Source: Hyphococcus luteus (lineage in GTDB: Bacteria > Pseudomonadota > Alphaproteobacteria > Caulobacterales > Parvularculaceae). Taken from it: a DNA stretch of 64,000 nt. Under the pieces are notes generated by a model that was given only the letters and a program-made list of their open reading frames with translations, was not told where the DNA came from and made no database searches. Location: contig NZ_PJCH01000005.1 in NCBI RefSeq assembly GCF_002943565.1, forward strand, positions 1 through 64,000. Direction: 5' to 3'. Positions 16,119 to 39,630 of the stretch are shown here, one piece after another. Within the stretch, counting starts at the first letter, position 1. Every line of letters starts with the position of its first letter. A program made the position numbers and the translations under genes.

Positions 16119-16171
16119 CTCGTTTGATACCGCAAAGCATAATTCCATGAGGTATTTCATGGAGGCACCTC

Positions 16172-19660: not shown

Positions 19661-19675
19661 TGTCAATAATCGGCA
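19661..19675. promoter_or_regulatory. GntR-type operator candidate A
   Basis: TGTCAATAATCGGCA, 13 of 15 matches to the palindrome TGTCAATWATTGACA. It lies upstream of the MFS gene starting at 19549 and downstream-facing from the GntR pair. Its shared use with six other promoters of the island supports a common regulator. Confidence 0.7.
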
Positions 19676-19765
19676 ATATATCATTCAGCGAGCCTTTGGA
19701 AGGGACGAAAGGACAAATAAGCAGCGCGGGCGCGCCTCCTTTTGAGCAGCCGCGTCAGCCCGATA

Positions 19766-20533
19766 TCATTCGCCGGCTTCCGCCAGCGCATCAAGCGGCA
19801 GAGGACTGTCGCCCGCCTCAGCCCGGCGGCGAATTTCAGCGAGACTGTCGAGCACTAGATCCCGGGCGAGCCGCTCGGCCTCGCCGACACGCCGGTTCTC
19901 GATGGCTTTACAAAGGGCGTTCCATCGCGCCGCCGAGCGCCGGCGGCGTTCGGGGCTGAGAATGCTCGCCCACAAAACCGCCACCTCCCGTTCGAACGCG
20001 CCCGACATGCGCCCGAGATAGTTGGCGCCCGATATGCTGGTAATCAGTACAGACACGGCGCGGCGCACGGTGATGTAGTGTCCGACAGTGGCGTCTTCCG
20101 TTGCCGCCAGGCGCATCAGCAGGGCCGCGCCGTCGGCGATGGCGCCGAGCGCGGCGGCGCTGGGTTCGGAAGCGGACGCCGCAAGACCGGCCTGAGCGGC
20201 GAAAAGCTCGGCGCGAATGTGAAACAGGCCTTCGAGCTCCTCATCCGTCAGCTTACGCACGATTGCGCCTTTGCGGCCGCGAAGCGCCACAAGACCGTCC
20301 CGGTCGAGCAAGCGCAACGCTTCACGCACCGGCCCGCGGCTGACATCGAAATGATCAGCCACCGCCAGCTCCCGGATCGATTCACCCGGCTTGAAATCGC
20401 CGAACTGAATCCGGTCGGCGATCCAAGCGGCGATATGGCCCGGCAGGGTCGGCGGCGGTGGTTGCGCGACGCCTGCGATCGTCTCCGCACGCGCGACAAA
20501 AGCCCGAATATCCGGCTCAAGCTCCGTTGTCAT
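19766..20533 (-). CDS. GntR family transcriptional regulator (FadR-like)
   Basis: 255 residues. An N-terminal winged helix-turn-helix (about residues 30-95: LPGHIAAWIADRIQFGDFKP, IRELAVADHFDVSRGPVREA, LRLLDRDGLVALRGRKGAIV) is followed by an all-helical FCD-type ligand domain starting ELEGLFHIRAEL. Such regulators bind short palindromes as dimers and release DNA on binding an organic acid. The start ATG overlaps the stop of the preceding GntR gene by 4 bp (ATGA), so the two proteins are probably made together in fixed ratio. Target: most likely the TGTCAATWATTGACA sites around it, including the one at 21135. The likely FCD metal-binding residues could not be placed with certainty. Confidence 0.93.
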   Translation of the reverse strand: MTTELEPDIRAFVARAETIAGVAQPPPPTLPGHIAAWIADRIQFGDFKPGESIRELAVADHFDVSRGPVREALRLLDRDGLVALRGRKGAIVRKLTDEELEGLFHIRAELFAAQAGLAASASEPSAAALGAIADGAALLMRLAATEDATVGHYITVRRAVSVLITSISGANYLGRMSGAFEREVAVLWASILSPERRRRSAARWNALCKAIENRRVGEAERLARDLVLDSLAEIRRRAEAGDSPLPLDALAEAGE

Positions 20534-21153
20534 CGGCTTAGACTTTCTTCAATTTCAACGAGGCGCTCCGGCGCAACGATCGCTACATGCAGCGCGATGC
20601 GCGCCATCGCACGAACGAGACGTATGTTTCCGGACGATGCGCCGAGCCTTTCCAATTGGGCTTCAATCTGTTTCAGCCGGTCTGACGGTTGCTTTTTTGA
20701 TTTGCCCTCAGGCAATGACGGTTGGATAGAGGCGTCGTGACGGCGAAGCTCTTCTCCCAGCAACCACCGCAAACGATCCCACACGATAAAAAGCTCCTCA
20801 GGCGGCGCGTAAGCCTCGGCAATCACGCGCGCCCCGCGCCGCGCCGAAACAATGATCGCGCCCTGTTTTTCCAGAAGATGAAACGCCTCCCGCGTGGTCG
20901 CCGACGTGCAGTCGAAGCGCTCCGTCACCGCGCGTTCCGTGATGCGCGCGCCCGCCTTGAATGATCCGTCCACGATCAATGCGCGCAACTCGTCCGCGAC
21001 GACCGCAGGGCCGGCGCCGCTTTTGCTTGACGCATCGGAAGGTTTTGTCGTTTGGTGCTGGGTCCTGGCTTTTGTTGTTTTTCTTGTCACGTTCCTGAAG
21101 ATCGTCCGCCGGTTGCTGATTAAGGGCTTGCATTCGTAAATAATTGACTTCAT
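20530..21153 (-). CDS. GntR family regulator with short C-terminal domain
   Basis: Up to 207 residues. A winged HTH (VVADELRALIVDGSFKAGAR, ITERAVTERFDCTSATTREA, FHLLEKQGAIIVSARRGARV) follows a polar 45-residue N-terminal extension. The C-terminal part (LFIVWDRLRWLLGEELRRHD onward) is only about 90 residues, much shorter than a full FCD domain of about 130. The ATG at 21153 lies on top of operator candidate B; GTG 21090 would give 187 residues and leave the operator in the promoter, so the start is uncertain. It overlaps the second GntR gene by 4 bp. I infer a heteromeric or mutually regulating pair; only the gene arrangement is seen. Confidence 0.88.
   Translation of the reverse strand: MKSIIYECKPLISNRRTIFRNVTRKTTKARTQHQTTKPSDASSKSGAGPAVVADELRALIVDGSFKAGARITERAVTERFDCTSATTREAFHLLEKQGAIIVSARRGARVIAEAYAPPEELFIVWDRLRWLLGEELRRHDASIQPSLPEGKSKKQPSDRLKQIEAQLERLGASSGNIRLVRAMARIALHVAIVAPERLVEIEESLSR
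21135..21149. promoter_or_regulatory. GntR-type operator candidate B (autoregulatory position)
   Basis: CGTAAATAATTGACT, 12 of 15 matches to TGTCAATWATTGACA. It lies between the divergent GntR pair and the MaoC-like gene, or over the first codons of the GntR gene if ATG 21153 is used. This is where autorepression would be expected. Confidence 0.55.
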
Positions 21154-21180
21154 AGGGGTTAGGCAACCGTTTTATAGATT

Positions 21181-22041
21181 TTGCAAGCTCCGCCATTGCC
21201 CTTGCCTTCCGACATAGCCGGGCGCCGCTTCGGCCCGCTCTCATGGACCGCCACGCTGCGGCGTATTCTCGCTTATCGCGCCGCGCTTCGCCCGTCGGAT
21301 GCGCAGTCGCTGAACGATGACAATGGAGGCGCGTTCCGCGCCTTGCCGTTTCACGTTTCGACGCCCGAATGGCTGCTTTCCTGTGAAATGATCAAATCAT
21401 TTGAAGGCCTGGCGCCCGAAGAAGCCGAACGGGGCGTGGTGATTGGGCAAGACACGTCGTTTTTTCAACCGATCATCGCCGGGGCCGATATTAATGTTGA
21501 GGCGACGATAACCGGGCTGCGGCCCGCCCGTTCCGGCGCGATCCTTGCGGCGACGTTTGAAACCCGCAGCGCCGACGGCGCCGTCCTGCACGCCCGGACA
21601 AAAGCGACAACGATGTATCGAAACGTCGTCTGTGAGACGACAGGCGATACGCCGTCGCCCGTGTCAATTGCGCCGCCTGGAACGGGCGCGGTTGAGAGGG
21701 AATTACGCCTTTCTTTCGGCTTCGCCCATGTCTTTTCCGAATGCGCCGAAATCTGGAACCCGATCCATACGGAGTATCGCGTTGCAAGACGCGCCGGACT
21801 TGAAGAGCCCATCGTACACGGCGCTGCGTTGTGGGCGCAGGCCGGTCTTTTGATCGCAGATGTCTGCGCCGACGGTGAGCCCGGCCGCCTGAAGCGTCTA
21901 AGCGCACGTTTTCTGGCGCCGGCGCCGAACGGCGCGCCATTATCCTTTTCCTGCGAGCATGAAGACGGCGCGGCGCGATACGCTTTGCGCCTTGCCGATG
22001 GCGCGCTCGCTGTCGCAGGTGAGGCGGTTTACGCGCGCTAG
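21181..22041 (+). CDS. MaoC-like / FAS1-type dehydratase (double hotdog) protein
   Basis: 286 residues with two hotdog halves. The second half carries the hydratase-2-like stretch AEIWNPIHTEYRVARRAGLE followed by EPIVHGAALWAQ. Enzymes of this group hydrate or dehydrate 3-hydroxyacyl-CoA thioesters. The usual catalytic Asp of the D-x-N-P-(L/I)-H motif is Ile here (I-W-N-P-I-H), as in some FAS1-like or mesaconyl-CoA-hydratase-like relatives, so ordinary enoyl-CoA hydratase chemistry is doubtful. The start is uncertain: 21181 is TTG with no good ribosome-binding site, and another TTG follows at 21196. It is transcribed divergently from the GntR pair, sharing operator B, and likely acts on a CoA intermediate of the island's pathway. 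Confidence 0.75.
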   Translation: MQAPPLPLPSDIAGRRFGPLSWTATLRRILAYRAALRPSDAQSLNDDNGGAFRALPFHVSTPEWLLSCEMIKSFEGLAPEEAERGVVIGQDTSFFQPIIAGADINVEATITGLRPARSGAILAATFETRSADGAVLHARTKATTMYRNVVCETTGDTPSPVSIAPPGTGAVERELRLSFGFAHVFSECAEIWNPIHTEYRVARRAGLEEPIVHGAALWAQAGLLIADVCADGEPGRLKRLSARFLAPAPNGAPLSFSCEHEDGAARYALRLADGALAVAGEAVYAR

Positions 22042-22097
22042 ACAAACGCCGAACGCCGGCGCAATGAACTTCGCCGGCATTCGAATTCGCTTGGCGC

Positions 22098-23360
22098 TTA
22101 TGGGTTTGCGTCCACCTGATCGTCGATCAGCTCGGCGAGCCCCATGGGATTGATGATAAGCTCCACCGCGTCCTGATAACCGGACAGCAGGTGATCATCG
22201 AGATGGATATAGGCGGCCCAGTCTCTTTCAGGCGAATAGAAAGTGACCGCGCCCCATGCGCCGACGCCCATATAGATCGTTGAATGGCTCAAATCCTCAG
22301 GCGCAAACACCCACTGGCCGCGCGCATAGTCAATACTGAGTTTCTGCGCCGGACTGCTCACTACTGGAACAGGCTCACAATTGCCCACGCCGTCGCACCG
22401 GCCAGACTGGAGCGGTACCATGACCTCGGTCATGTCTGCGCGGGACGTCGCGTTCAAAAGCGCATGGCTGGAGCCGCACTGCCCACTCAAAAGGGCTTGC
22501 GCAAATGCTCCGCCATCGAACAAATCCGTTTCAAAGCCGCCCGCCGGCCATTCATTGCCGCTCCGCGTGACGGTCGTGTTCGGAAAGTTGCACACGCCGG
22601 AGCCGGTCAAATAGTTTTCGACGAGATCCGTGAAGCTGTAATTCGTCGAATAAGCGTGGTTGACCGCGTTCACCAGAACAAGGCCTAAAATCTGCCAGGA
22701 CATGGGCCCATAAGAGAAGGCGTCGCCCGGCGCATAAACGCGAACGGCGTGATCTGGATCGTCGGCAATGTCGGCCGCTACCATTTCCTCGCCGCAATCT
22801 TCAAACGATACAAAGGGGTTGTTGATGCACGAGAACACATTCGCCGGCCAGGCGCTGACGCTTTCATGCCCTGTCGTCATGGTGATGAGATCGTCAATCG
22901 TCATATGGTCATACACGAGCCGCGGGGTTCCGCTGTCGTCGAACGCGCTTGAATTCAGCGACGTCGCATTGGGGATGTAATCTTTCACAAGATCATTGAG
23001 CGAAAGACCGACGTGCTGATCCTCAATAACAGCGAAGGCCAACGCCGCCGTATAGGTTTTGGACAATGACGCGACATTGAAATTGTGGTTGTCGACGAAC
23101 GTCTCGCAATCCTGTCCGTCCCACCAGCCAAAACCGCTCCAATAAACGACCTGCCCCTTATGATAGACGATCAAGCCGCCGCTCTGGAACGGCGAATCTT
23201 CCAGCGCATCCTTAACGGCCGTCCAGTCATATCCAGAGGGCAACGTCGCCGGCGGGCAGTTTTCGTAAGACGCCGCGGCGGCCTTCCCAGCCAAAGTCAT
23301 GGCAAGGAACGCCCCAAGCAGCGCGCCCGCTCTTCCCAGATGTTTGCTCATATGCCTCAC
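22098..23360 (-). CDS. Secreted serine hydrolase of the beta-lactamase/DD-peptidase fold
   Basis: About 420 residues with a cleavable signal peptide (GALLGAFLAMTLAGKAAAA). The nucleophile motif S-x-x-K is ASLSKTYTAALA, and the second motif region may be YGPMSWQILG. Members of this fold include class C beta-lactamases, DD-peptidases, esterases and amide hydrolases such as EstB and NylB. Several Cys pairs in the mature part suggest disulfides and a periplasmic location. GTG 23360 follows AGGAGG by 5 bp; ATG 23351, three codons on, is the alternative. Operator candidate C lies 124 bp upstream. In this island I infer hydrolysis of an ester or amide substrate in the periplasm and not resistance. 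Confidence 0.85.
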   Translation of the reverse strand: MRHMSKHLGRAGALLGAFLAMTLAGKAAAASYENCPPATLPSGYDWTAVKDALEDSPFQSGGLIVYHKGQVVYWSGFGWWDGQDCETFVDNHNFNVASLSKTYTAALAFAVIEDQHVGLSLNDLVKDYIPNATSLNSSAFDDSGTPRLVYDHMTIDDLITMTTGHESVSAWPANVFSCINNPFVSFEDCGEEMVAADIADDPDHAVRVYAPGDAFSYGPMSWQILGLVLVNAVNHAYSTNYSFTDLVENYLTGSGVCNFPNTTVTRSGNEWPAGGFETDLFDGGAFAQALLSGQCGSSHALLNATSRADMTEVMVPLQSGRCDGVGNCEPVPVVSSPAQKLSIDYARGQWVFAPEDLSHSTIYMGVGAWGAVTFYSPERDWAAYIHLDDHLLSGYQDAVELIINPMGLAELIDDQVDANP

Positions 23361-23483
23361 TGTTTCCTCCTTGATTGACAGCGTTTCGCCGCCGCCAGGC
23401 GACTGGCGGCGCGAACGCATAGTTTTTGCCGGCCTACAAGGCGCAACAGTTGGGTCGGCTTTGTGACCGGAGCGCCGCCATAT

Positions 23484-23498
23484 TGTCAATAATTGTCA
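23484..23498. promoter_or_regulatory. GntR-type operator candidate C
   Basis: TGTCAATAATTGTCA, 14 of 15 matches to TGTCAATWATTGACA, followed by two more tcaa half-like repeats. It lies upstream of the leftward serine hydrolase and in the divergent promoter region it shares with the rightward one. Confidence 0.8.
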
Positions 23499-23564
23499 AA
23501 TGGTCAAGAAATCAGTGGATGTCTGGGCCGTAATCGGCTAATTTTCTCTAAAAAACCACGTTAT

Positions 23565-23579
23565 TGAAATTTATTGACA
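23565..23579. promoter_or_regulatory. GntR-type operator candidate D
   Basis: TGAAATTTATTGACA, 12 of 15 matches to TGTCAATWATTGACA. It ends 16 bp before the TTG start of the rightward serine hydrolase at 23596, a position that would block transcription initiation or early elongation. Confidence 0.65.
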
Positions 23580-23595
23580 ATTATGGGAGGGAAAA

Positions 23596-24906
23596 TTGAC
23601 CGAGGCCTTCACCCGCCGCAGCGCGCTTGCCGCCGCCATCGCCGCGCCGCTCTCAACCCTCGCCCTGCCCGCCTGCAGCGCCAAGGCTCCCGCCGCTCCC
23701 TCCTTCAACAAGAGCCGGCTCAAAGAAGCCGGCGCGCTTATCGACGACCTTATCGACAAAAGACGCATTCCCGGCGCAGGCATGCGCATCTCGCGCCATG
23801 GCGAGCTTCTTTTCGAGCATTACGCAGGCGACGCGGATATGGCTTCAGGCAAATCCATTGCTCCGGATACGATCTACCGGGCTTATTCCATGACCAAGCC
23901 GGTGACGGTCGCAGCCGTCATGATCCTGATCGACGAAGGCATGGTTTCCCTTGACGCGCCCGTTGCATATTATGTTCCTGAGTTTTCCGACCTCGCCGTT
24001 TTCGTGTCGAACGATGGCGACGCCGTTAAGACTGAACCCGCCGAGACGATGCGCGTTCTTCATCTCCTGACGCACACGTCCGGCATCAGCAATAGCTGGA
24101 ACCCCGGGCCTATTTCCGCCCTTTACCGCAAAGCCGGGCTTGTCTCGGCCCAATACGCCTACAATCCGGAAATCAACGCCGGTCTTCCGGAATTCGCCGC
24201 GCGCCTCGCTAAGATTCCGCTGGAGTTTCAGCCCGGCTCGCGATGGCTTTACAGCTTTTCTCCCGATATCGCGGGCCTGATTGTCGAGCGCGTAACGGAA
24301 GAGAGTTTCGGCACCTTCCTGAAAAAACGCATTTTCGATCCTCTCGGCATGAAGGACGCCGATTTCCTCGTTCCCGCCGACAAGGCGGAGCGCCTTGCAA
24401 ACATGTACTCTTTGAAGGACGAAGAGCTCGTCCTGGCGGAGGCCGCAGCCGAATCGCCCTTCCTGCAAAAACCTTATGTCGAATCGGGATCCGCTGGACT
24501 TTTATGCACGCTGGCCGACTACGACCGCTTCGCCGATATGCTTGCAGGGCTCGGCGAAAGCGGGGGCGTGCGTATTATGAGCGAGGATAGCGCCCGCACC
24601 ATGATGTCGCCCCATATCGGCCCCGATATTCTGGGCGACGTCTTCAAACAATTCATGGGATTTGCGTCCGGCGGCTCTGGCCTTGGCATGGAGATGGCGC
24701 TTGGCGGCGCCGTCTTGACCGATCCCGCCATCGCCGAAACGCCGGGCCTTAAGGGCGAATATAGCTGGGGCGGCGCCGCCAGCACGACCTTTTTCTCGGT
24801 TCCCGACGCCGGTCTGTCGGCGACACTGATGACGCAGCTTTTTCCGTCGGGAACGCTGCCCTTGCGCGACATGCTGAAAACCGCCGTTTACAAGGCCCTT
24901 GATTAA
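23596..24906 (+). CDS. Serine hydrolase (beta-lactamase family), predicted lipoprotein
   Basis: 436 residues. A twin-arginine-like, lipoprotein-type leader (TRRSALAAAIAAPLS, then LPAC lipobox) indicates export and membrane anchoring. The catalytic S-x-x-K is YSMTKPVTVAAVM, followed by HLLTHTSGIS and a YSFSPDIAGLIVERV segment holding the Tyr of the second motif, as in EstB-type esterases and 6-aminohexanoate-dimer hydrolases. The TTG start at 23596 is supported by GGGAGGG nine bases upstream. It is followed after 40 bp by the DUF3089 lipoprotein gene, probably one transcript controlled by operator D. A second, unrelated-sequence member of the same fold is divergent at 22098. Confidence 0.88.
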   Translation: MTEAFTRRSALAAAIAAPLSTLALPACSAKAPAAPSFNKSRLKEAGALIDDLIDKRRIPGAGMRISRHGELLFEHYAGDADMASGKSIAPDTIYRAYSMTKPVTVAAVMILIDEGMVSLDAPVAYYVPEFSDLAVFVSNDGDAVKTEPAETMRVLHLLTHTSGISNSWNPGPISALYRKAGLVSAQYAYNPEINAGLPEFAARLAKIPLEFQPGSRWLYSFSPDIAGLIVERVTEESFGTFLKKRIFDPLGMKDADFLVPADKAERLANMYSLKDEELVLAEAAAESPFLQKPYVESGSAGLLCTLADYDRFADMLAGLGESGGVRIMSEDSARTMMSPHIGPDILGDVFKQFMGFASGGSGLGMEMALGGAVLTDPAIAETPGLKGEYSWGGAASTTFFSVPDAGLSATLMTQLFPSGTLPLRDMLKTAVYKALD

Positions 24907-24946
24907 ACCGCTCCTGAGCGTATCCGCGCCCTGTAGGAAACACCCA

Positions 24947-26062
24947 ATGAAAAAGACAATATCGGTTTTGTTCGCAGCGCTGATGACGGCCGCTTGTTCC
25001 TTGAAAAACGAGGACGACACGGGACTCGCCCGAAGGCTGTTGCTCAAGCCGGATCACGATTTTTCGCCGGATCTCGCGCCGCCCGCCCCTGACTATGCGA
25101 ACGACGATGCGTGGGCCGCTCTGCCCGGCCGCGAAGACAACGCCGATCAGACGCCGGAAGGCGTGGAGAACGGCGAAGAAACCGCGCGCGCCGACGTTTT
25201 CTTCATTCATCCCACCACCTATTTCAAAAAGGACGGCTGGAACGCGCCTTATGACGATTCCGGCGAAGCCCGCATGAGCGTCGAAAATGGAACTCTGCGC
25301 GGCCAGGCGAGCGTTTTCAACGGCTGTTGTCGCGTTTTCGCGCCGCGCTATCGCCAGGCGACGCTTTACACGTTCTTTGCATTCAACGAAAATAGCAAAG
25401 GAGCGCTCGATCTCGCCTATCGGGATGTCGCCGCGGCGTTCGATAATTTTGTCCATGAAAGAAACGATGGACGGCCTTTCATCATCGCCAGCCACAGCCA
25501 GGGCAGTTATCACGCCATGCGCCTTCTTGAAGAGCGCGTCATGGGCGCAGACCTTATGGACAGGCTCGTCGCCGTTTACGCGGTCGGGGGGCCTGTGCCG
25601 GAGGCTTTTGCGCCGGACCGCCTGCCGCCTTGCAGCGACGCCCGGCAGACCCGCTGCATCGTCGGCTGGAACACGGTTAGCAAAAACGCCGAACCCGATC
25701 CGCGCCGTGACGAACACGCCCTCATCTGGCTCGACGGCGAATACCAGCCGATCGCCATGCGCCCTCTGCTATGCGTCAATCCGCTGAACTGGAAAGCAGG
25801 CGGCGCCGCACCCGCGAGCGACAATCTCGGCGCGCTTTCGGGCAAACAGGAGCCCGACGCCTTATCGGCGCCCCTGCCTCGCCTCACCGGCGCGAGATGC
25901 GAAAACGGATATCTGGTTATCGATTTCGATAAGGACATAGACGGATTTAAAAGCCGGCTCACGAAGAACGGTTCTTATCACGTTTTCGACTACAATCTCT
26001 TCTATATGAATATCCGCGCAAATGCGATCGATCGGGTCGACGCCTTTCTTGAAGAGCAATGA
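24947..26062 (+). CDS. DUF3089 family lipoprotein, alpha/beta-hydrolase-like
   Basis: 371 residues with a short signal peptide and lipobox (MKKTISVLFAALMTAAC). Typical DUF3089 (PF11288) features are seen: DVFFIHPTTYFKKDGWN near residue 85, a nucleophile-elbow-like IIASHSQGSYHAMRLL near 185, and YAVGGPVPE after it. The serine in SHSQG suggests hydrolase activity. ATG 24947 follows TAGGAAAC and the signal peptide fixes the start. It lies 40 bp after a serine hydrolase lipoprotein gene, and both are expected at the cell envelope. I infer that the two act in sequence or as alternatives on an ester-containing substrate. Confidence 0.85.
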   Translation: MKKTISVLFAALMTAACSLKNEDDTGLARRLLLKPDHDFSPDLAPPAPDYANDDAWAALPGREDNADQTPEGVENGEETARADVFFIHPTTYFKKDGWNAPYDDSGEARMSVENGTLRGQASVFNGCCRVFAPRYRQATLYTFFAFNENSKGALDLAYRDVAAAFDNFVHERNDGRPFIIASHSQGSYHAMRLLEERVMGADLMDRLVAVYAVGGPVPEAFAPDRLPPCSDARQTRCIVGWNTVSKNAEPDPRRDEHALIWLDGEYQPIAMRPLLCVNPLNWKAGGAAPASDNLGALSGKQEPDALSAPLPRLTGARCENGYLVIDFDKDIDGFKSRLTKNGSYHVFDYNLFYMNIRANAIDRVDAFLEEQ

Positions 26063-26082
26063 GGCTGATGATCGCAAGAATA

Positions 26083-26118
26083 TCCCCCGGAAAGTGAGTC
26101 GGGGAACATTTTTAAGCT
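26083..26118 (+). terminator. Probable rho-independent terminator
   Basis: A C-rich arm (tcccccg) and a matching cgggga arm around a 10-nt loop, followed by attttt and tttttt runs, 20 bp after the DUF3089 stop. One bulged base makes it imperfect. Confidence 0.5.
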
Positions 26119-26156
26119 TTTTTGTTTTGCGCGCGTTCGGCGCTTCGCGCCTCACT

Positions 26157-26197
26157 ATCCGAAAACCGGTTCCCGTTTTTTGGAAGGCGCTCTAATT
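26157..26197. repeat. Alphaproteobacterial intergenic palindromic repeat-like element
   Basis: The string ccgaaaaccggttcccgttt, followed by tttggaa and ending in gctcta, strongly resembles the 'CCGAAAACCGGTTCCCACTTTTCGGGATCATGCTCTA'-like intergenic elements (quoted here only as a family type) scattered in many alphaproteobacterial genomes. Only one copy was noticed in this window. Confidence 0.45.
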
Positions 26198-27671
26198 AAT
26201 CGCTGCAAAGTTTCTGTGCATGCCGCACCCAGTCTTGCATGGAGCGCGCGTTTTTCAGGCTCATGCAGTGTGCCCGCAAATCCGCTTTTCGCCTTTCATT
26301 CAGACGCGATCCGGCAAGCGCGTTGAATTTATTCACGCGCTGCTCTGCATTGAGTGGGGCAGGCGCCTGACGGTCCGGATCCTGCGCAACGGCGAGAATT
26401 CTTTCTCCGTTGCGAAGCACGATTTCGATGGAAAGATGATCGCTATCATTCACTTCAAACGATCCGGACCGCGCAAGCGAAATGATTTCCGGATCCTGGA
26501 ACGTCTCTTGCGTGTAATCGCCGGGCAGAACCGAACGGCGCGCCAGCCACATGGCGACGACAAAGCTGAAATTGAGCGCCGCCCCGATCCGCGATGACGG
26601 CGGCTCGAAATCATTGATCTTGCGCGCCACAATGCGGCTCCAGGCGGCGTTGCCGCGAACGATGAAGCTTTCAACCGACGCCGGATCGAGATCGGGCGGC
26701 GCGGCGCTTTGCAGACCGTCAAGGGTCGGAATAATTGAATGCGACGCCGCGAAGAATTTGGGCCGCAAATAGAGCGGCCCTTCCAGCCGGCCAAGGTCGT
26801 CCGTGAATGTCTCGCACGCCGGCGCGTTCGTTCCCGCAAAGAGCCGGTAAAGTCCGGCACGCCCTTCGAGGAAGCGCTCGGCCCCGCGTTCGCCGAGGCC
26901 GGCGAGATCGACGCTTTCGATCGCCGCGCGCGCCGCCCGCGCGACGATGATGCGCTTTTCATCGCTCTGATCGAAATAATACTGAAAGACGCCGCCCGCC
27001 GCCGAGCCGGCAAGCGACACCGCTGCGGCGATTTCTGCGGGCGGGCGCTTGCGCAAAAGCGCGACCGCCGCCGCCGCCGCGGGCGGTCCCCAGACGCCGG
27101 AGGCCATCCAGCCCCGCCCCTGAATGGGCCCCACAGACTGGACCAACCGCCCCTGCAGCGTGTATCCGAGCCCCGCGGCCCGCAGGAATGCAGCGCCGGT
27201 TGTGTCTGCAGCCTGCGCTGCGGCGAGACACGCCGGCATGATGACCGCGGATGCGCGCAACTCGCCCCGCGGATCGCTGTCGTCGATTTCCGCAGCGTGA
27301 AGCAGATACGCCATCGCCGCCGCGGCGCCGGTTTGCGACGATGACAAATCCGCCGTTAAAACATCCGCCTCCTCGCCCGGCGCGCTTGCCGCAAAATACC
27401 GCGCCGCCGCCACGGGCCGACGAAGCGAGCCCGCATAAAGCATGGATCCGACGTTATCGATCAGCGTCCATGCGAGCCGTTCTTCGACTTGTGGCGGCGC
27501 GCGCTCAGGTAGGGCGCTCGCGGCCTCTGCAATCGCTATGGCGTAACTATCCCGCAAGGCTTTGCTCTTTCTGGCCAATGTTTGTTCAGCGAGCGCCCGC
27601 GCCGGCAGAGCGCCGGCCAGCGCGACGGCGGCGCCAAACAAAGTCCGGCGCGTGATGTTGTGCCTTTGCAG
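26196..27671 (-). CDS. MmgE/PrpD family protein with twin-arginine signal
   Basis: About 490 residues of the MmgE/PrpD fold, whose best known members are 2-methylcitrate dehydratase and cis-aconitate decarboxylase. Family-like stretches are the all-helical N-terminal domain with LAWTLIDNVGSMLYAG, AMAYLLHAAEIDDSD, and the central PAAAAAVALLRKRPP and LYLRPKFFAASHS regions (Lys/His of the active-site area). Unusually it begins with a Tat-type leader, NITRRTLFGAAVALAGALPA followed by RALA, implying export to the periplasm; family members are normally cytoplasmic. No ATG, GTG or TTG lies between the preceding receptor's stop (27691) and the leader, so CTG 27671 is given tentatively. The reading frame itself extends to 27917. 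It appears cotranscribed with the receptor at 27691-29931. Confidence 0.75.
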   Translation of the reverse strand: MQRHNITRRTLFGAAVALAGALPARALAEQTLARKSKALRDSYAIAIAEAASALPERAPPQVEERLAWTLIDNVGSMLYAGSLRRPVAAARYFAASAPGEEADVLTADLSSSQTGAAAAMAYLLHAAEIDDSDPRGELRASAVIMPACLAAAQAADTTGAAFLRAAGLGYTLQGRLVQSVGPIQGRGWMASGVWGPPAAAAAVALLRKRPPAEIAAAVSLAGSAAGGVFQYYFDQSDEKRIIVARAARAAIESVDLAGLGERGAERFLEGRAGLYRLFAGTNAPACETFTDDLGRLEGPLYLRPKFFAASHSIIPTLDGLQSAAPPDLDPASVESFIVRGNAAWSRIVARKINDFEPPSSRIGAALNFSFVVAMWLARRSVLPGDYTQETFQDPEIISLARSGSFEVNDSDHLSIEIVLRNGERILAVAQDPDRQAPAPLNAEQRVNKFNALAGSRLNERRKADLRAHCMSLKNARSMQDWVRHAQKLCSD

Positions 27672-27690
27672 CGGCGAACATGCGCCTTGC

Positions 27691-29931: not shown

Positions 29932-30012
29932 ACTCGCCTCCCTCGCCCGACGCCGTCGGGTCTGCAACGGCTCGTTTGCCGCCCTTATCTGTATTGTTGC
30001 GATCTCATAATA

Positions 30013-30027
30013 TGTCAATTATTCACA
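30013..30027. promoter_or_regulatory. GntR-type operator candidate E
   Basis: TGTCAATTATTCACA, 14 of 15 matches to TGTCAATWATTGACA, 82 bp upstream of the leftward TonB receptor. Confidence 0.8.
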
Positions 30028-30283: not shown

Positions 30284-30298
30284 AGTCAATAATCGACA
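30284..30298. promoter_or_regulatory. GntR-type operator candidate F
   Basis: AGTCAATAATCGACA, 13 of 15 matches to TGTCAATWATTGACA, 95 bp upstream of the rightward TonB receptor at 30393. Between sites E and F (30028-30283) no gene was recognised; a 61-residue leftward open frame there resembles nothing known. Confidence 0.75.
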
Positions 30299-30392
30299 TT
30301 GTACAACGCACATACAGCGCCCGTTCAAAAAGCCGGCAAGAAGCGCAAAGGCGGGCGGCGCCTCGAAAGAATTCAGGCGCAAGGGAGGGAAA

Positions 30393-32642: not shown

Positions 32643-32794
32643 CCAGGACCTGAACGGGCCCCGGCGTGGGCGGCGAAATCCTCCCTTTCTCCGCTCACGT
32701 CACTCTTGCTCAGAACGCGCAGGGCGCCCAACCTCATCGTCGCCTTCCGCACAATCTGATATGTATCTAAATGCATTTGAGACGGGAGGCGAAC

Positions 32795-34411
32795 GTGCTT
32801 CAGGGATTGATGCAGCGATCGCCGCTGTTGATCAGCGGTGTTCTGGATTACGCCGCCAGCGCCCATTGCGACCGGGAAATTGTTTCGAGGCTCGTCGATG
32901 AACCATTATGGCGTTACGATTACGTAGGGCTTCGCAGGCGCGCCGCTCAATGCGCGCGAATGTTGCAAGTGCTCGGGGTTGCGCCAGGCGATCGCGTAAC
33001 TTCGCTCGCCTGGAACACGCACCGGCATCTGGAGCTCTTTTACGCAGCACCGGGCGCCGGCGCCGTCCTGCACACGGCCAATCCGCGTTTTTCCGAGCAG
33101 CAGCTCGTCTACACGATCAATCACGCCGGCAGCCGCGTCCTGTTATTCGACCGGTCCTTAATTGATCTCGTCGCGCGCCTGCGGCCGCAGCTTCCCTCAA
33201 TCGACACATACATTCTGCTGGCGGAAAACCCGGACGGCGCGCCCGAAGAATTAAAAGCAGCAGGTTACGAGGACCTGATCGCCAAAGAGGATGAAGACAT
33301 TGAATGGCCGGTGTTCGATGAAAACGCCGGCGCCTTTCTGTGCTACACGTCGGGGACGACCGGCGATCCCAAGGGCGTTCTTTACAGCCACCGTTCGGTC
33401 GTCCTTCACGCGCTCGCCGCCGGCCTGCCGGGCGCTTTCGATTTCTCCGCGTTCGACTGCATCATGCCCTGCCCCTCGCTCTATCACGCAACTGCCTGGG
33501 GCCTTCCTTTCGCGGCGGCGATCAACGGCTGCAAGATCGTTTTGCCTTGCGACAAAATGGACGGCGCCAGCCTTCAGGAGCTCATCAAGGACGAGGGCGT
33601 GACTTTTTCCGGCGGCGTGCCGACGGTGTGGACCATGTATCTCGACCATCTGGCGCGCTCGGGCGAGACGGCCGAACCGCTCAAACGCATCATCATCGGC
33701 GGCTCCGCCGTGCCGCGCGCCATGGCGGAGACGTTTCAGAAGAAATACGGCGTCGCGGTCCGCCAGATCTGGGGAATGACCGAAACCAGCCCGCTCGGCG
33801 TCGTGGCGACGCCGACGCCGAAAGTCGCCGCACGCGGGAAAACCGAAATGAACGACGCGATCTGGACCCGTCAGGGACGGCTCCAATTCGGCATAGAACT
33901 GAAGATCGTCGATGCCGATGGGAACGCGCTGCCGCATGACGGAAAATCGTCCGGCGCGCTTCTCGTTCGCGGCCCATGGACGATCGAGCGATATTTCCGT
34001 GCGGAAAACTCCGCGCTTGACGCCGAGGGCTGGTTCGACACGGGCGATATCGCCACCATCGATCCTGATGGCTTCATGCGCATTACAGACCGGAGCAAGG
34101 ACGTCATCAAATCCGGCGGCGAATGGATCAGCTCAATCGACATAGAGAATGCGGCCGTGTCGCATCCGGCTGTTCGCATCGCCGCCGTCGTCGGCGTCGC
34201 GCATCCGAAATGGGAAGAGCGCCCCATTCTCATTGTCGAGCTTCTCGACGGCGTGACGATGTCGGCGCAGGCCGTCCTCGATCATGTCGCGCCGCATGTT
34301 GCGAAATGGTGGCTTCCGGACGCCGTCATCTTCGCAAAAGTGCCGCTTACGGCGACGGGCAAGATCGACAAGAAGAAGCTGCGCGATCAGTACCGCGCCT
34401 ATCTGTTATAG
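32795..34411 (+). CDS. Acyl-CoA synthetase (AMP-forming), medium/long-chain type
   Basis: 538-residue cytoplasmic member of the ANL superfamily that activates a carboxylic acid to its CoA thioester through an acyl-AMP. Visible motifs: P-loop-like [22 protein letters not shown]-site [26 protein letters not shown] with [17 protein letters not shown], and the C-terminal catalytic Lys in [14 protein letters not shown]. The closest known types by pattern are AlkK-like fatty-acid and methylmercaptopropionate-CoA ligases. GTG 32795 is preferred because GGGAGG lies 6 bp upstream; an in-frame ATG 32771 has no such site. It probably shares the transcript of the upstream TonB receptor controlled by operator F. 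Confidence 0.9.
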
Positions 34412-34573
34412 GAGCGAAGCGAGCTACGCCGGCCGCCTGCTGGCGCCATCCGGTTTCCACGAGCTTTCCTGCCTTTGCGCCGGAATCCTATTTCGGCTGG
34501 CCGACGCCGCGTTCGGCAGGCTCGCCGTCAAGCGGGACTATCTTTAGATTGCCGTTTGCCTCCGGCGCGCCGG

Positions 34574-36292
34574 TTAAACGCTTGCGCCATCGGCAATCCG
34601 CGCGAGGCGGAGCTGCCTGACTTTTCGCCGGTCGATTTTACCGCTTGCGAGGCGCGGCAATGAGGACGCCTGAAAATCGATCCGTTCGGGAATCTTGAAC
34701 CTGGCCAGCCTTGGCGCCAGAAAATCCCGGACCGCCTCGGCCGTCAGATTCGCGCCGGCCCTTGGCATGATCGAAGCGGCCACGATTTCGCCGAGGCGTT
34801 CATCGGGCTCGCCGTAAATGCAGGCTTCTTCGATGTCGGGATGCTCGAAAAGCAGGGCTTCGATTTCATTGCAGCTTACATTTTCACCGCCGCGAATGAT
34901 GATTTCCTTGATGCGGCCCACGATATAGAGGCAGCCATCTTCGTCAAAACGCCCGAGATCGCCGCTGCGCAGCCAGCCGTCCTGAAAAATCTCCCGCGTC
35001 GCTTCCGGCTTATTCCAGTAACCCGACATATTGGCGATCGATTTGATCCAGATCTCCCCTTCCGCGCCCGGCGGAGCGTCGTGTCCGTTCTTGTCCGCCA
35101 GGCGAATCTCCACAATCGGCGCATTCGGCAGGCCGACGCTGTCGGGTTTGGCCTGATATTCGTCGGCGAAAATCAGCGCGCCCAAGCCGCAGGTTTCGGT
35201 CATGCCGTAACTGGCTTGCGGAAAGACTTGCGGCAGGTTTTCCGCAATGTAGCGAATGCGGGCGGGCGGCGTCGCGGCGCCCGAACCTGTGATTTCAACG
35301 AGGCTATCCAGAGTCTTGCCAGCGCGCGACGATGCGTAGAGGAGATCCATGACCATGGCGGGCGCTCCGTTGAAGTGGCTGATCTTTTCCTCCTCGATCA
35401 GGCGCAGCGCCTCGGCCGCGTCCCATTTATTCATCATGACAATGCGCCGCCCTGAAATCAGGGACAACAGAAAGCAGGCGTAACAGCCCGCGACGTGAAA
35501 CAGCGGCATATTCAAAAGCAGCGCCCTGTTTTCGGCGGACGGCAAAATATCGAAAAGCTGCTCGACCGCCGCGCCGAGATTGAGCCAGAACCAAAGCGCC
35601 TGAACCAACCCGCGATTCGTCGCCACGACGCCCTTCGGCGCGCCCGTTGAGCCGGATGTGTACATGATGCAAACGGCGTCATCGCCGGCGATCGAGACTC
35701 CCGGCCAGTCGCTCGCATTGCCCGCATTGCACAGATCGTCAAATGTCAGGCAGGACTTCGTGGCGGGCGTCGTCCTGCGCGCCAGGATGGCGCGGACGCC
35801 ATCCCGCTCAAGATAATGCCGCAACCGCGCGAGACGCTGTTCATCCGAGAAAACGAGTTTCGCGCCGCTATCGCCCATAGCGTAGCTGAGTTCATCAGCC
35901 TCCCACCAGGAATTCAAAGGAACGACGATGCCGCCGCAGGCGGCGATCGCCAGAAAGGCGATCATCCATTCGGGACAATTGCGCATGGCGATTGCGACGC
36001 GATCGCCTTTCTTCACGCCCAGCTCATTGACAAGCCGGCCAGCCAGGGTTGCGGCGCGGTCGAGCAATTCGTCAAAGCTCAGCCTTTCATCGCCATAGCG
36101 CAAAAATTCCTGCGCGCCAAAATGACGGCCGCGCGCGATGAAGACGTCCCGCAAGATTTCGGGCGCATGGCTGTAGATTTGATACGCAACGCCGTCGAAC
36201 TCCTTGCGTTCGGTTTTAAATGGTCCGTCCTCCCGGTTCAGGCCGTAAGCTTTCGCATGAATCTGGCGATAGATGCTGGGCTCTTGTGTCAT
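34574..36292 (-). CDS. AMP-dependent synthetase/ligase (acyl-CoA ligase)
   Basis: 572 residues, ANL superfamily. Motifs: IMYTSGSTGAPKGVVATNRG, YGMTETCGLGAL, WLRSGDLGRFDEDGCLYIVG with GRIKEIIIRGGENVSC, and LPRLASGKIDRRKVR holding the catalytic Lys near the end. It differs clearly from the ligase at 32795, so the two probably activate different intermediates or act in sequence. It is the distal gene of a leftward unit TauD, small gene, DmdC-like dehydrogenase, ligase, with 79 bp to the dehydrogenase. The transcript would start near operator G. A dioxygenase, CoA ligase and acyl-CoA dehydrogenase together fit stepwise oxidation of a carboxylic acid. Confidence 0.9.
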   Translation of the reverse strand: MTQEPSIYRQIHAKAYGLNREDGPFKTERKEFDGVAYQIYSHAPEILRDVFIARGRHFGAQEFLRYGDERLSFDELLDRAATLAGRLVNELGVKKGDRVAIAMRNCPEWMIAFLAIAACGGIVVPLNSWWEADELSYAMGDSGAKLVFSDEQRLARLRHYLERDGVRAILARRTTPATKSCLTFDDLCNAGNASDWPGVSIAGDDAVCIMYTSGSTGAPKGVVATNRGLVQALWFWLNLGAAVEQLFDILPSAENRALLLNMPLFHVAGCYACFLLSLISGRRIVMMNKWDAAEALRLIEEEKISHFNGAPAMVMDLLYASSRAGKTLDSLVEITGSGAATPPARIRYIAENLPQVFPQASYGMTETCGLGALIFADEYQAKPDSVGLPNAPIVEIRLADKNGHDAPPGAEGEIWIKSIANMSGYWNKPEATREIFQDGWLRSGDLGRFDEDGCLYIVGRIKEIIIRGGENVSCNEIEALLFEHPDIEEACIYGEPDERLGEIVAASIMPRAGANLTAEAVRDFLAPRLARFKIPERIDFQASSLPRLASGKIDRRKVRQLRLARIADGASV

Positions 36293-36371
36293 GGCTGGTC
36301 TGTCCTTGCGATAAGTCCGTCTTTTTGTATGAAAATGGGAGGAGCCGCGGCGCGCATGGCCGCGCCAATGA

Positions 36372-38171
36372 TCATTCGCCGATAAAGGATTCTGGTGTTA
36401 CGGTGAGGCACGTATCGTCCAGCGATCCCACCAACCGGAAAACATGCTCTGTCTTGGGCAGCTCATAGTTGAAGAAAAAGCGGCAGGCGGCGATCTTCCC
36501 CCGATAAAAATCCTTATCCGCCTCTTTTCCGCTTTCCAGCCCGTTAATCGCGGCAATCGCCAGTCTGAGCCACATCCACCCGATGACCACATGGCCGAAG
36601 GCGTCCAGAAACGGTGTTGCATTGGCGAGCGCCCGGTTGACGTCGCTGCATTGGCTGATGCGCATGATCGTGGAATGGCATTGGTCCAGCGCTTCTTTCA
36701 GCGTGCGCGCTTCGCCCTCCCGTCCGACGGTCGTCGAGGCGGCGGCGAGCGTCTTCTCGATTTCCGCGGTAAGCAATTTTAAAGCGGCGCCGTCATGTAT
36801 GCGGACCTTGCGGCCCAACAGATCGAGGCCCTGAATGCCGTGCGTTCCTTCATGAATGGCATTGATCCGATTGTCGCGATAATGGCGCTCCACCGGATAG
36901 TCCCGCGTATAGCCATATCCGCCAAGCACTTGGATGGCGTGTTTGTTCGCCTCAAGGCAGAATTCGGACGGCCAGGATTTCGCGACCGGCGTCAAGATGT
37001 CGAGTAAAAGTTTCAGCTCCCACCGCTCGTCATCGTCGGTTGAAAGGCGCTGACGGTCTACAAGCGTAGCGCAATAATAGAGAAGCGCAAGCGCCCCTTC
37101 CACATAGGCCTTCTGCGTCATGAGCAGGCGTTTCACATCCGCATGCTCGATAATCGCAATCTGCGGGCTCGCCGGATCCTTGTCTCCGGGATGGCGTCCC
37201 TGCAGACGCTCGCGCGCATATTGCAGCGAATAGAGATAGCCGCCGAGCGCGCTCATCGTTGCGCCGGCGCCGACGGCGAGGCGCGCCTCGTTCATCATGT
37301 TGAACATATATTTGAGGCCCTGATGCGGCTCGCCCACCAAATAGCCGCGGCACTCGCCCGCTTCGCCGAAATTCAGCGCGCAATTGGTCGTGCCGCGATA
37401 GCCCATTTTGTGGTTGAGCCCGATGAGGGAAACATTGTTTTTCTCGCCGACGGAGCCGTCGAGGTTCACGCGGTATTTCGGAACGATGAAAAGCGAAATG
37501 CCCTTCACTCCGGGCGGGCCGCCCGGAATTTTCGCCAGCACCATATGGACGATATTTTCGGAAATCTCCTGTTCTCCGCCGGAAATCCACATCTTGCTGC
37601 CGGTGATGCGATAATGGCCGTCATCGGTGGGCGTCGCCATTGTCTTGATATCCGACAGCGACGAGCCCGCCTGCGGTTCGGAGAGGCACATGGTCCCGAA
37701 CCATTTGCCTTCCAGCATCTTCGGCAAGAACATCGCCTTTTGTTCGGCGTCGCCACATTCGTTCAACAGGTTCGCGGCGGCGACGGTCAGGAACGAATAG
37801 CCCGCGACGCTGAGATTGGCGCAGGCGAACATGCCCTGCACGGCCTGGCACACCACCGAAGGCAGTCCCAGGCCGCCGATCTCCTGATCGAAACCGGCGG
37901 CGAAAAAGCCGGCCTCGGCGAAAGCGTAAAGCGCTTCGCCTACCTGCGGCATCATCGACACTTTTTCGCCGTCGAAGGCCGGCTCATTCGCGTCGAGTGC
38001 GCCGGCGAACGGCAGAAATGCTCTCTCCGCCATGTTCTGCGCAAGATCGAGCACTGCGTCGATGCTGCCGCGGTCGAACTCCGTATAGGAACCATTTCGC
38101 AAAATCTCATCGAGATCGCCGACTTCATAGAAAAGGAAATCGATATCCCTGCGATTAACGATTAATGACAT
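36372..38171 (-). CDS. Acyl-CoA dehydrogenase, DmdC-like
   Basis: 599-residue FAD enzyme of the enlarged acyl-CoA dehydrogenase group typified by 3-methylmercaptopropionyl-CoA dehydrogenase (DmdC). It has the short N-terminal extension (VNRRDIDFLFYEVGDLDEIL), the FAD/substrate motifs MCLSEPQAGSSLSDIKT and ITGSKMWISGGEQEIS, the middle part NHKMGYRGTTNCALNFGEAG, QVLGGYGYTRDYPVERHYRD and the EGTHGIQGLDLLGRK end of the core, then the extra C-terminal helical domain. A second member of the same group is at 46319. The ATG overlaps or closely follows the small gene after TauD. Substrate: an acyl-CoA made by one of the two adjacent ligases, by inference only. Confidence 0.92.
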   Translation of the reverse strand: MSLIVNRRDIDFLFYEVGDLDEILRNGSYTEFDRGSIDAVLDLAQNMAERAFLPFAGALDANEPAFDGEKVSMMPQVGEALYAFAEAGFFAAGFDQEIGGLGLPSVVCQAVQGMFACANLSVAGYSFLTVAAANLLNECGDAEQKAMFLPKMLEGKWFGTMCLSEPQAGSSLSDIKTMATPTDDGHYRITGSKMWISGGEQEISENIVHMVLAKIPGGPPGVKGISLFIVPKYRVNLDGSVGEKNNVSLIGLNHKMGYRGTTNCALNFGEAGECRGYLVGEPHQGLKYMFNMMNEARLAVGAGATMSALGGYLYSLQYARERLQGRHPGDKDPASPQIAIIEHADVKRLLMTQKAYVEGALALLYYCATLVDRQRLSTDDDERWELKLLLDILTPVAKSWPSEFCLEANKHAIQVLGGYGYTRDYPVERHYRDNRINAIHEGTHGIQGLDLLGRKVRIHDGAALKLLTAEIEKTLAAASTTVGREGEARTLKEALDQCHSTIMRISQCSDVNRALANATPFLDAFGHVVIGWMWLRLAIAAINGLESGKEADKDFYRGKIAACRFFFNYELPKTEHVFRLVGSLDDTCLTVTPESFIGE

Positions 38172-38189
38172 AAGACGAACTGAACTCCC

Positions 38190-38423
38190 TCATATTTGCG
38201 AAACGACGTCATGGGACCGTCTTTCACGAAGTGGTAGGCAGACAGCAAAACGCCGGTCACGATGACTACCAGCAAGAGAAGCGTCTGCAATCTGCAGCAC
38301 AAAGAACAGGCCCGGACCGATCTTCACGAATTCCTTAAGCGAAGTACATACGCCAAACCCCGCGAACGCGACGACCTGCGCCGACTTCGACAACTCGGCA
38401 ATCGCGACGAAGACGGTTTCCAT
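38190..38423 (-). CDS. Small hydrophobic protein between TauD and the dehydrogenase, possibly frameshifted
   Basis: A 77-codon frame starts in a TGATG overlap with the TauD stop: METVFVAIAELSKSAQVVAF then AGFGVCTSLKEF and KIGPGLFFVLQIAD. The first 50 residues look like a genuine membrane protein piece. From about 38285 the frame turns Arg/Asp-rich, while the neighbouring frame becomes strongly hydrophobic (LLLVVIVTGVLLSAYHFVKD and MTSFRKYEGVQ) and runs into the start of the dehydrogenase. This suggests one frameshift in an originally longer, two-helix membrane protein. I do not recognise the family. The position in the operon suggests a role, such as transport or anchoring, in the same pathway. 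Confidence 0.4.
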   Translation of the reverse strand: METVFVAIAELSKSAQVVAFAGFGVCTSLKEFVKIGPGLFFVLQIADASLAGSHRDRRFAVCLPLRERRSHDVVSQI

Positions 38424-39301
38424 CAAAAGGGTTTTTCGCCTTTGATCGTGACGCGATTGCCGTAACGGCGGTTGGGCCAGTAATCCCAAATGGCGTGATG
38501 CTGCACGCAGCGGTTGTCCCAGAAGGCAAGAGAGCCCGGAGTCCAGCGAAAACGGCATTGAAAAGCGGGATGCGCCGCATGCTGAAAGAGAAAACGCAAG
38601 ATCGCATCGCTCTCGCAAGGGGATACGCCGTCAATCGAAACAGTGAAGCCGGAATTCACATAAAGGCATTTCTTGCCGGTTACAGGATGGGTGCGCAGGA
38701 TGGGATGGCTGGACCTCGGATAAGACGGCTTGTCTTCGACGCCAAGATTGGCGTAAAGCCCGCGATAAACATGCTCGCCGTCATGGGTGGCTGTCATCCC
38801 TTCCAGGTAGGTTTTCATCCGTGACGAAAGCGCCTCATAGGCGGCGTACATGTTGGCGAAAAGCGTATCGCCGCCTTCCGGGGGCGTTTCCTTAATATAA
38901 AGCATGCTGCCGAGCGGCGGCTCGGCGTCGCAGGAAACATCCGTATGCCATATTTCACCATTCGCCCTGGCCGAATTCTCATCGGCCGCAATAATCATGA
39001 TTTCCGGATGACCCGGCTCGCTCGGCGCGGCGGGATGCGTATGAAGCTCGCCGAAGAGACGGCCAAAGGCCGCATGCTGTTCAAGGGTCAAGGACTGACC
39101 ACGGAAGAAGATGACGAGATTTTCCGTGAACGCCTGATGAATCTCTTCGAGCACATCCTCATTGACGCCGGCGGCGATATCGACGCCTCCGATTTCAGCG
39201 CCGATGACAGGCGTAAGCCTGTTCACCTTGATCTTCCGATAAGCGGCGGAAGGCGCGCCCACGGCGGCAGCGCTTAACGGTTTTTCTTTCAAATTCGTCA
39301 T
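38423..39301 (-). CDS. TauD/TfdA family Fe(II)/2-oxoglutarate dioxygenase
   Basis: 292 residues. N-terminal RLTPVIGAEIGGVDIAAG, then VIFFRGQSLTLEQHAAFGRL; the iron ligands are the HxD of EIWHTDVSCDAEPPLGSML and the distal His of FWDNRCVQHHAIWDYWPN, with the 2-oxoglutarate Arg in GNRVTIKG. Family members hydroxylate sulfonates, aryloxy-acids, alkyl sulfates and similar compounds, often releasing part of the substrate. ATG 39301 is chosen because the paralogous fragment at 18201 starts at the same residue; a longer frame to 39406 is low-complexity. It heads a leftward unit with a perfect operator G 315 bp upstream. A decayed paralogue lies at the opposite edge of the island. Confidence 0.92.
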   Translation of the reverse strand: MTNLKEKPLSAAAVGAPSAAYRKIKVNRLTPVIGAEIGGVDIAAGVNEDVLEEIHQAFTENLVIFFRGQSLTLEQHAAFGRLFGELHTHPAAPSEPGHPEIMIIAADENSARANGEIWHTDVSCDAEPPLGSMLYIKETPPEGGDTLFANMYAAYEALSSRMKTYLEGMTATHDGEHVYRGLYANLGVEDKPSYPRSSHPILRTHPVTGKKCLYVNSGFTVSIDGVSPCESDAILRFLFQHAAHPAFQCRFRWTPGSLAFWDNRCVQHHAIWDYWPNRRYGNRVTIKGEKPF

Positions 39302-39615
39302 AGGTGAGATCCGATTTGAGCTTTCGGCATAAGGGCGGCGCCGACGCACGGCTTTCTTGCGCGCGTCCTGCGTTCGGTCTGCGGCGAAAACGGGCGAAAG
39401 GCGCACGGCGCGGAAACCGCCGCGCCGAGGATAGACGCAAATCGCGCGGCGCGATCAGCGCTGGCCCGGGCCGCCAAACAAGCGACAAGTTCAGGGCGCG
39501 TCCTTTGGCTTCGGTCACTTCTGTCCCCTTTGTTGCGTTGCGGCATGATTTCAGTCGAGCATGCCGTACCGGTTTCCTTCCGCCGACGACTTATGGAACG
39601 CCAATTCATCATTAT

Positions 39616-39630
39616 TGTCAATAATTGACA
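39616..39630. promoter_or_regulatory. GntR-type operator candidate G (perfect palindrome)
   Basis: TGTCAATAATTGACA, a perfect match to the proposed consensus. It is the only copy without mismatches and lies upstream of the TauD, dehydrogenase and ligase unit. The surrounding stretch 39302-40130 holds no recognised gene; short frames there look like chance. Confidence 0.85.

Follow-up and report, generated by a model that had tools for sequence, protein, structure and literature searches.

A 15-bp near-palindrome as the putative operator of a regulon of paired GntR genes in Hyphococcus luteus

Regulators of the GntR family generally bind two-fold symmetric sites as dimers. According to PMC4494728, which also states this general rule, GT and AC are separated by 2-3 nucleotides in FadR-type operators and by 4 in most HutC-type operators; in YtrA-type operators they lie far from the centre, and the corresponding regulators have short C-terminal domains. 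In E. coli, the paralogous GntR regulators ExuR and UxuR cross-regulate their targets and are reported to form heterodimers (PMC9369180 and PMC12842492), UxuR being described as a homo- or heterodimer (PMC12842492), so that the idea of a GntR heterodimer is not new. The present analysis concerns a 15-base-pair (bp) palindrome found in a catabolic island of Hyphococcus luteus, within a stretch of 64,000 nucleotides (the window), and two GntR genes of that island, GntR1 and GntR2. From the computed evidence, it is strongly supported that the palindrome marks the regulon of these two genes. The element is probably their operator, and the pair would most likely act as a heterodimeric repressor.

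Like ExuR and UxuR, the two GntR regulators would govern a catabolic regulon. Unlike in that pair, one partner is shortened, the genes overlap, Sphingopyxis has a fusion of the two, and the putative operator is a GT-N9-AC element of lopsided shape. GntR2 combines a winged helix with a weakly matching FCD-type helical domain, the architecture of FadR/FCD members such as VanR Atu1419 of Agrobacterium fabrum, which is the best fold match by E-value of a predicted model of the fusion. In contrast to that subfamily, for which PMC4494728 gives 2-3 nucleotides, 9 nucleotides separate GT and AC here, and GntR1 has no Pfam FCD match. Far-apart GT and AC and a shortened partner recall the YtrA subfamily as described in the same source, whereas the FCD domain of GntR2 leaves the pair outside the YtrA group by domains. 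None of the papers found in a search for tandem or fused GntR proteins deals with such a protein, judging from titles and the beginnings of abstracts. Searches with the motif strings, in a literature mostly without subscription papers, found no paper either.

Sites in the window and in a second island

Site positions, conservation, co-occurrence, asymmetry and the fusion were computed. The seven palindromes proposed in an earlier note on this DNA are all present at their positions, with 0-3 mismatches to TGTCAATWATTGACA, and are the sole matches with at most three mismatches in the 64 kb (Table 1). In 100 dinucleotide shuffles, 0.52 matches were expected and the maximum was three; none attained seven. 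All seven precede a gene start, and Pfam bears out the gene types that had been named, that is, an MFS carrier, two GntR regulators, two serine hydrolases of the beta-lactamase family, two TonB receptors and TauD. Every presumed transcription unit of the island, as deduced from gene order, is headed by a site. These units are MFS; GntR1-GntR2; serine hydrolase 1; serine hydrolase 2-DUF3089; TonB1-MmgE/PrpD; TonB2-CoA ligase 1; and TauD-acyl-CoA dehydrogenase (ACAD)-CoA ligase 2. Sites 21135, 23484 and 30013 overlap the longest reading frames of GntR1, serine hydrolase 1 and TonB receptor 1, and are upstream of the starts that fit homologues or carry a ribosome-binding site. The site TGAAATTTATTGACA is located 16 bp 5′ of the TTG start of serine hydrolase 2, adjoining its ribosome-binding site. 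That at 21135, before the GntR pair, suggests autoregulation.

The 4.92-Mb genome was searched by pattern with up to three mismatches, matrix scoring being limited to selected stretches. It contains 38 such places, versus 11 for a reversed control pattern. With at most two mismatches, 11 places are found: five in the window island, four at 160-170 kb of contig C2 and two elsewhere (C10:344571 and C12:1093593). A random spread of equally good matches, named beforehand as an observation that would speak against a regulon, was thus not seen, nine of the 11 places lying in two islands. The statement that the palindrome occurs nowhere else is valid for the window, not for the genome.

The island on contig C2 has most of the genes of the window island, arranged in reverse, with 74-81% DNA identity to the window. 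It has six operators at equivalent places; one of them, at C2:168345 before its own GntR pair, had escaped the pattern search. At the six sites shared by the two islands, 13-15 of the 15 bases agree in register, versus 47-71% in the flanks (up to 100 bp). In the window, TauD is preceded by an operator of its own; in C2 it comes after the MFS gene, and it is therefore under an operator in both arrangements. No close counterpart of CoA ligase 2 or of ACAD was found in the C2 island. A third copy, in another species of the genus, is 96.5% identical to that of C2 over 17 kb and has six equivalent sites. Because it lies between two tyrosine-integrase genes, the first beside tRNA-Phe (L005:3501-3576, L005:3703-5058, L006:8658-9920), the C2 island looks mobile and is probably an integrated mobile island. 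Both islands of the genome probably share one cross-reacting regulon.

That the sites are chance or repeat-derived matches has a negligible probability. AT-rich palindromes do arise by chance, and two places with at most two mismatches fall outside the islands, but such an origin is contradicted by the shuffles and the in-register conservation in C2, as well as by the order-wide motif search, the motif in the Sphingopyxis group and the prediction in genome G976 (see below).

Distribution of the motif and of the GntR pair

Searching with GntR2 gave matches in 2 of 62 genomes of the family (E 1e-20 or better) and in 5 of 398 genomes of the order (1e-25, a threshold that more diverged pairs would escape). 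A separate search of 396 genomes of the order for the exact degenerate motif TGTCRATWATYGACA found it in eight. These include all five genomes with the GntR pair, where the nine exact sites are all inside the pair islands (Fisher test of co-occurrence, 7e-10). Among the 391 other genomes, three have the motif, at four sites. All four show complete GAT/ATC symmetry and fall within open frames of 192-734 amino acids, two of which resemble by eye a TonB receptor and a histidine kinase. In two of the pair genomes, G091 and G311, GntR2 is only 43-45% and GntR1 30-35% identical to the window proteins and the DNA has 66-67% G+C, with the sites nearly unchanged. In G091, a gene for a DUF1254/DUF1214 protein (C31:237834-239150) follows TonB1 in a compact Phenylobacterium-type locus.

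A second sample consists of 80 named loci with a TonB1 homologue; one of them, L071, apparently lies on the same contig as G091, so that the two counts overlap there. A site of at least 24 bits occurs in five, exactly those with the pair or a fusion in the region: two from Phenylobacterium, two from Sphingopyxis (L077 and L078, identical in sequence and not independent) and one from Brevundimonas variabilis, where the GntR pair is about 13 kb from the receptor. None of the other 75, many of which have a single GntR gene, has a site of this score, absence of the pair being judged within stretches of 3-22 kb. In two loci with a single GntR gene, L086 and L090, another palindrome, AATTATCGATAATT, lies upstream of the TonB1 match at a distance of about 165-175 bp. 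It was taken from the palindromes listed upstream of the receptor in 30 TonB1-homologue loci and is possibly the operator of single-GntR relatives.

More distant searches returned little. An initial GntR2 scan of named genomes gave no match, and a collection of 381 plasmid records only matches below 60% identity. In a class-wide GntR1 search (385 genomes), six genomes other than its own gave weak matches (best E 2e-16); among the eight loci returned, two are the own-genome loci with their known operators and the other six have no site above 15.7 bits.

The motif can also be used for prediction. In the genus group of Brevundimonas variabilis it occurs exactly in 2 of 131 genomes. One of these, G976, was chosen by the motif alone and then found to encode GntR1 and GntR2 (109 and 240 bits) beside sites. 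On another contig of G976 (C12:6752-6766), an operator not linked to the pair, with a partial second site behind it, precedes a serine hydrolase gene whose product is distantly related to hydrolase 1 (29% identity). This gene is a probable trans target of the GntR pair, located by its operator alone. Since the operator led to a probable unlinked target and to another species bearing the pair, it may be seen as a genome-scale tag able to delimit a catabolic pathway.

In Sphingopyxis, a single frame of 466 amino acids, read from stop to stop, matches GntR1 at residues 23-161 and GntR2 at residues 228-452, and contains two stretches matching the GntR winged helix (PF00392). The fusion gene is the last of a presumed operon MFS-carboxylesterase-enoyl-CoA hydratase-fusion with an operator at its head; the window MFS carrier has there, under the same operator, a homologue of 61% identity. 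A second operator of the region precedes a TauD gene 75% identical to that of the window. Of 80 genomes in the Sphingopyxis group, 4 have the fusion frame open, and all 4 carry the exact motif. The fifth genome of this group with the motif, G845, has the symmetric GAT/ATC form inside a 637-amino-acid frame, with no pair in its 5.6-kb contig.

From these data, it is quite improbable that a regulator encoded elsewhere uses the palindrome, the GntR pair being a passenger. The GT-N9-AC spacing, which is not that of FadR-type operators, would agree with this idea. However, the motif goes with the pair in the five genomes of the order, in the four fusion genomes and in G976, which was predicted blindly, and among annotated genes (some flanking genes being unannotated) no other DNA-binding gene is common to all loci. 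The earlier proposal of a regulon of the GntR pair is thus upheld in its core, pair and site co-occurring across genera and each predicting the other. The limits that it had set for the regulon do not stand, as the second island also carries it.

A putative asymmetric operator and two unequal regulators

Thirty-seven sites from nine regions were aligned with the better half on the left. Left out were C2:178116 (lacking a GTCAAT half and an evident target gene), G001:325822 (within the frame of a TonB receptor), the window match at 38156 (15.2 bits), the sites of G779 (a duplicate of G778), and those of G809, G821 and G976, which were read only afterwards. A perfect GTCAAT occurs in exactly one half of 33 of the 37 sites, in both halves of 2 and in neither half of 2. 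The partner half is TGTCGAT in 17 and variable in the others. An exact test of heterozygote excess gives 2e-6 for the 37 sites and 0.009 for the 21 non-orthologous ones (window, G265, G091, Sphingopyxis and Brevundimonas), or 0.015 without the doubtful site SPX 52609, which was kept. A perfect GTCAAT faces CGAT in 18 sites, SPX 52609 among them, and, read on the GTCAAT strand, all 18 have A at the centre (the 10/10 entry of this centre test was counted by hand). The preferred site would therefore be TGTCAATAATCGACA, which is not a true palindrome. The description of the element as a palindrome of the GntR type holds for the general form NyGTNxACNy, with GT on the strong side in 37/37 sites and, on the partner side, the C of AC in 37/37 and its A in 27/37. 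It does not hold for the FadR-type shape, GT and AC being 9 nucleotides apart in the aligned sites versus 2-3 in PMC4494728, nor for symmetry.

The two proteins are also unequal. Both exceed the curated cut-off of PF00392 (51.5 and 41.1 bits, versus 27). GntR2 weakly matches FCD (PF07729; 26.9 bits versus a cut-off of 24.3), GntR1 does not. GntR2 keeps SRGPVR[ED]AL in the eight aligned sequences, and in GntR1 the arginine of the SR pair is replaced in all eight. An AlphaFold model of GntR1 has a winged helix and four further helices. Taken together, the asymmetric operator, the differences between GntR1 and GntR2 and the fusion suggest two unequal subunits reading two unequal halves.

In an alternative view, GntR2 alone would bind as a homodimer, GntR1 being a non-binding partner, an anti-repressor or a sensor, and the asymmetry would merely tune affinity. 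This is unlikely, although it has the canonical recognition helix of GntR2 (8/8), its exclusive FCD match, the nearly palindromic shape of the operator and the general dimeric habit of the family on two-fold symmetric sites (PMC4494728) in its favour. Yet GntR1 retains its winged helix and accompanies GntR2 in all site-bearing loci read, the same deviation (CGAT, centre A) recurs in several genera, and the TonB1-homologue loci with only single GntR genes have no site of at least 24 bits.

As to the direction of control, 33 of 38 site-gene rows have the site 16-126 bp before the best-scoring start, chosen automatically. Several sites fall within the leader or adjoin the ribosome-binding site, and the orientation of the strong half towards the gene is not constant. 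These distances, the free orientation and the site before the regulators' own genes fit autoregulated repression. Activation by a complex bound upstream of weak promoters would agree with some sites being 80-126 bp, and in one case about 310 bp, before the start codon. It is rather improbable, given the free orientation of the strong half and the several sites 16-50 bp before start codons, one of them next to a ribosome-binding site. No convincing -10 box (at most 4/6 matches) was found behind the TTGACA of the operator, hence overlap with a -35 box is not claimed.

Several observations weigh against a heterodimeric repressor dedicated to these sites. Homodimeric repressors, too, can have asymmetric operators. 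When orthologous sites are merged, the asymmetry test loses strength (p 0.009-0.015); detection might have passed over sites in which both halves are imperfect, and in 2 of 5 Brevundimonas sites neither half is perfect. The 9-nucleotide spacing is not that of the FadR subfamily (2-3 nucleotides). The fusion is evidence of linkage, not of a heterodimer, and the fused chain itself could dimerise. The AlphaFold models of GntR1 (mean pLDDT confidence 73.7, predicted template-modelling score 0.52) and of the fusion (64.9 and 0.55) are too weak for arguments on interfaces. Judged by homologues, the probable start of TauD is about 310 bp away from site 39616. Finally, matches exist away from the pair: the close AT-rich TGTTAATTATTTACA (23.2 bits) at C10:344571, outside the islands; weaker matches of 17-23 bits in 3 of the 75 pairless loci; and one-mismatch matches outside pair loci in G778 (one), G779 (two) and the pairless G782 (one).

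With these points considered, a heterodimeric GntR1-GntR2 repressor remains the favoured explanation. Its fullest version has about even chances. In it, an obligate GntR1:GntR2 heterodimer, whose shortened winged-helix partner has diverged to a second half-site, would recognise a composite operator TGTCAAT-A-ATCGACA of non-FCD spacing; the Sphingopyxis protein would be a single-chain pseudo-dimer, and the system would travel with mobile catabolic islands for an ester-type nutrient. If true, this would be a naturally occurring bacterial repressor with two unequal subunits, each recognising one of two unequal half-sites, and the existence in living species of both overlapping separate genes and a fusion would make the evolution of heterodimeric DNA recognition by GntR proteins directly testable.

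Possible mechanism and genes of the island

From the above we infer binding, heterodimer formation, assignment of subunits to halves, repression, inducer and pathway as follows. One subunit of the heterodimer would read the nearly invariant half GTCAAT and the other the variable half, most often TGTCGAT. The complex would cover promoters or leader regions of the genes for uptake (TonB receptors and MFS), of the serine hydrolases, of the TauD-ACAD-CoA ligase operon and of the regulators themselves. It would be released by binding of the imported ester or acid, or of a CoA intermediate, to the FCD-like domain of GntR2. The usual metal-binding histidines of FCD seem to be missing in GntR2; together with its weak FCD match, this implies that the ligand may bind differently. 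In our reading, the regulon would control uptake and breakdown of an ester or acid, through outer-membrane uptake, ester hydrolysis by the serine hydrolases, inner-membrane import, oxidation by the TauD/TfdA enzyme, CoA activation and acyl-CoA oxidation.

Table 1. Genes and putative operators of the window island (mismatches are counted against the palindrome TGTCAATWATTGACA)
Feature	Position	Strand	Mismatches	Remarks
MFS carrier	18254..19549	-		Pfam MFS_1 6.9e-46
Operator TGTCAATAATCGGCA	19661..19675		2	Before MFS carrier; C2 counterpart 14/15 in register, flanks 52%
GntR2, GntR winged helix and weak FCD domain	19766..20533	-		Pfam GntR 7.9e-14, FCD 7.2e-6
GntR1, winged helix and shortened helical C-terminal domain	20530..21090	-		Pfam GntR 1.4e-10, no FCD
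Operator CGTAAATAATTGACT	21135..21149		3	Before GntR pair; C2 counterpart AGTCAATTATTTTCT, G001 counterpart AGAAAATAATTGACT
MaoC-like dehydratase	21181..22041	+		Pfam MaoC 4.2e-10; no match in C2 island
Serine hydrolase 1 (beta-lactamase family)	22098..23360	-		Pfam PF00144 3.9e-18; start inferred
Operator TGTCAATAATTGTCA	23484..23498		1	Before serine hydrolase 1
Operator TGAAATTTATTGACA	23565..23579		3	Before serine hydrolase 2; 15/15 identical in C2
Serine hydrolase 2 (beta-lactamase family, esterase-like)	23596..24906	+		Pfam PF00144 1.9e-58
DUF3089 protein	24899..26062	+		Pfam 1.3e-67
MmgE/PrpD family protein	26196..27917 (longest frame)	-		Pfam 6e-37
TonB receptor 1	27691..29931	-		Pfam; homologue in every GntR-pair locus examined
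Operator TGTCAATTATTCACA	30013..30027		1	Before TonB receptor 1 and MmgE/PrpD
Operator AGTCAATAATCGACA	30284..30298		2	Before TonB receptor 2 and CoA ligase 1; 15/15 identical in C2
TonB receptor 2	30393..32642	+		Pfam
Acyl-CoA ligase 1	32771..34411	+		Pfam AMP-binding; 69% identical homologue in Brevundimonas locus
Acyl-CoA ligase 2	34574..36292	-		Pfam AMP-binding
Acyl-CoA dehydrogenase (ACAD)	36372..38171	-		Pfam
TauD/TfdA-type dioxygenase	38423..39301	-		Pfam TauD 7.1e-71
Operator TGTCAATAATTGACA (perfect)	39616..39630		0	Before TauD-ACAD-CoA ligase 2

The GntR1 and GntR2 genes overlap by 4 bases. The longest frame of MmgE/PrpD overlaps in its 5′ part that of TonB1, so that its true start is further in. 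The best PDB matches of serine hydrolase 2 are esterases and carboxylesterases. The TauD-like enzyme belongs to the TauD/TfdA Pfam family, scores below the NCBIfam cut-off for taurine dioxygenase (281.3 bits versus 313), and falls near taurine and (R)-phenoxypropionate dioxygenases. In Brevundimonas, TauD and ACAD follow an operator in the same order.

The weaker operator-like match excluded from the alignment (38156-38170) is at the 5′ end of the acyl-CoA dehydrogenase frame. The MaoC-like gene stands between GntR1 and serine hydrolase 1 in the window island and not in that of C2. Should it form a separate transcription unit, it would begin about 31 bp away from the operator of the GntR genes. 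Near the edge of the island, at 14863-16483, the window contains transposase-like frames (HTH_Tnp_1/rve, DUF772).

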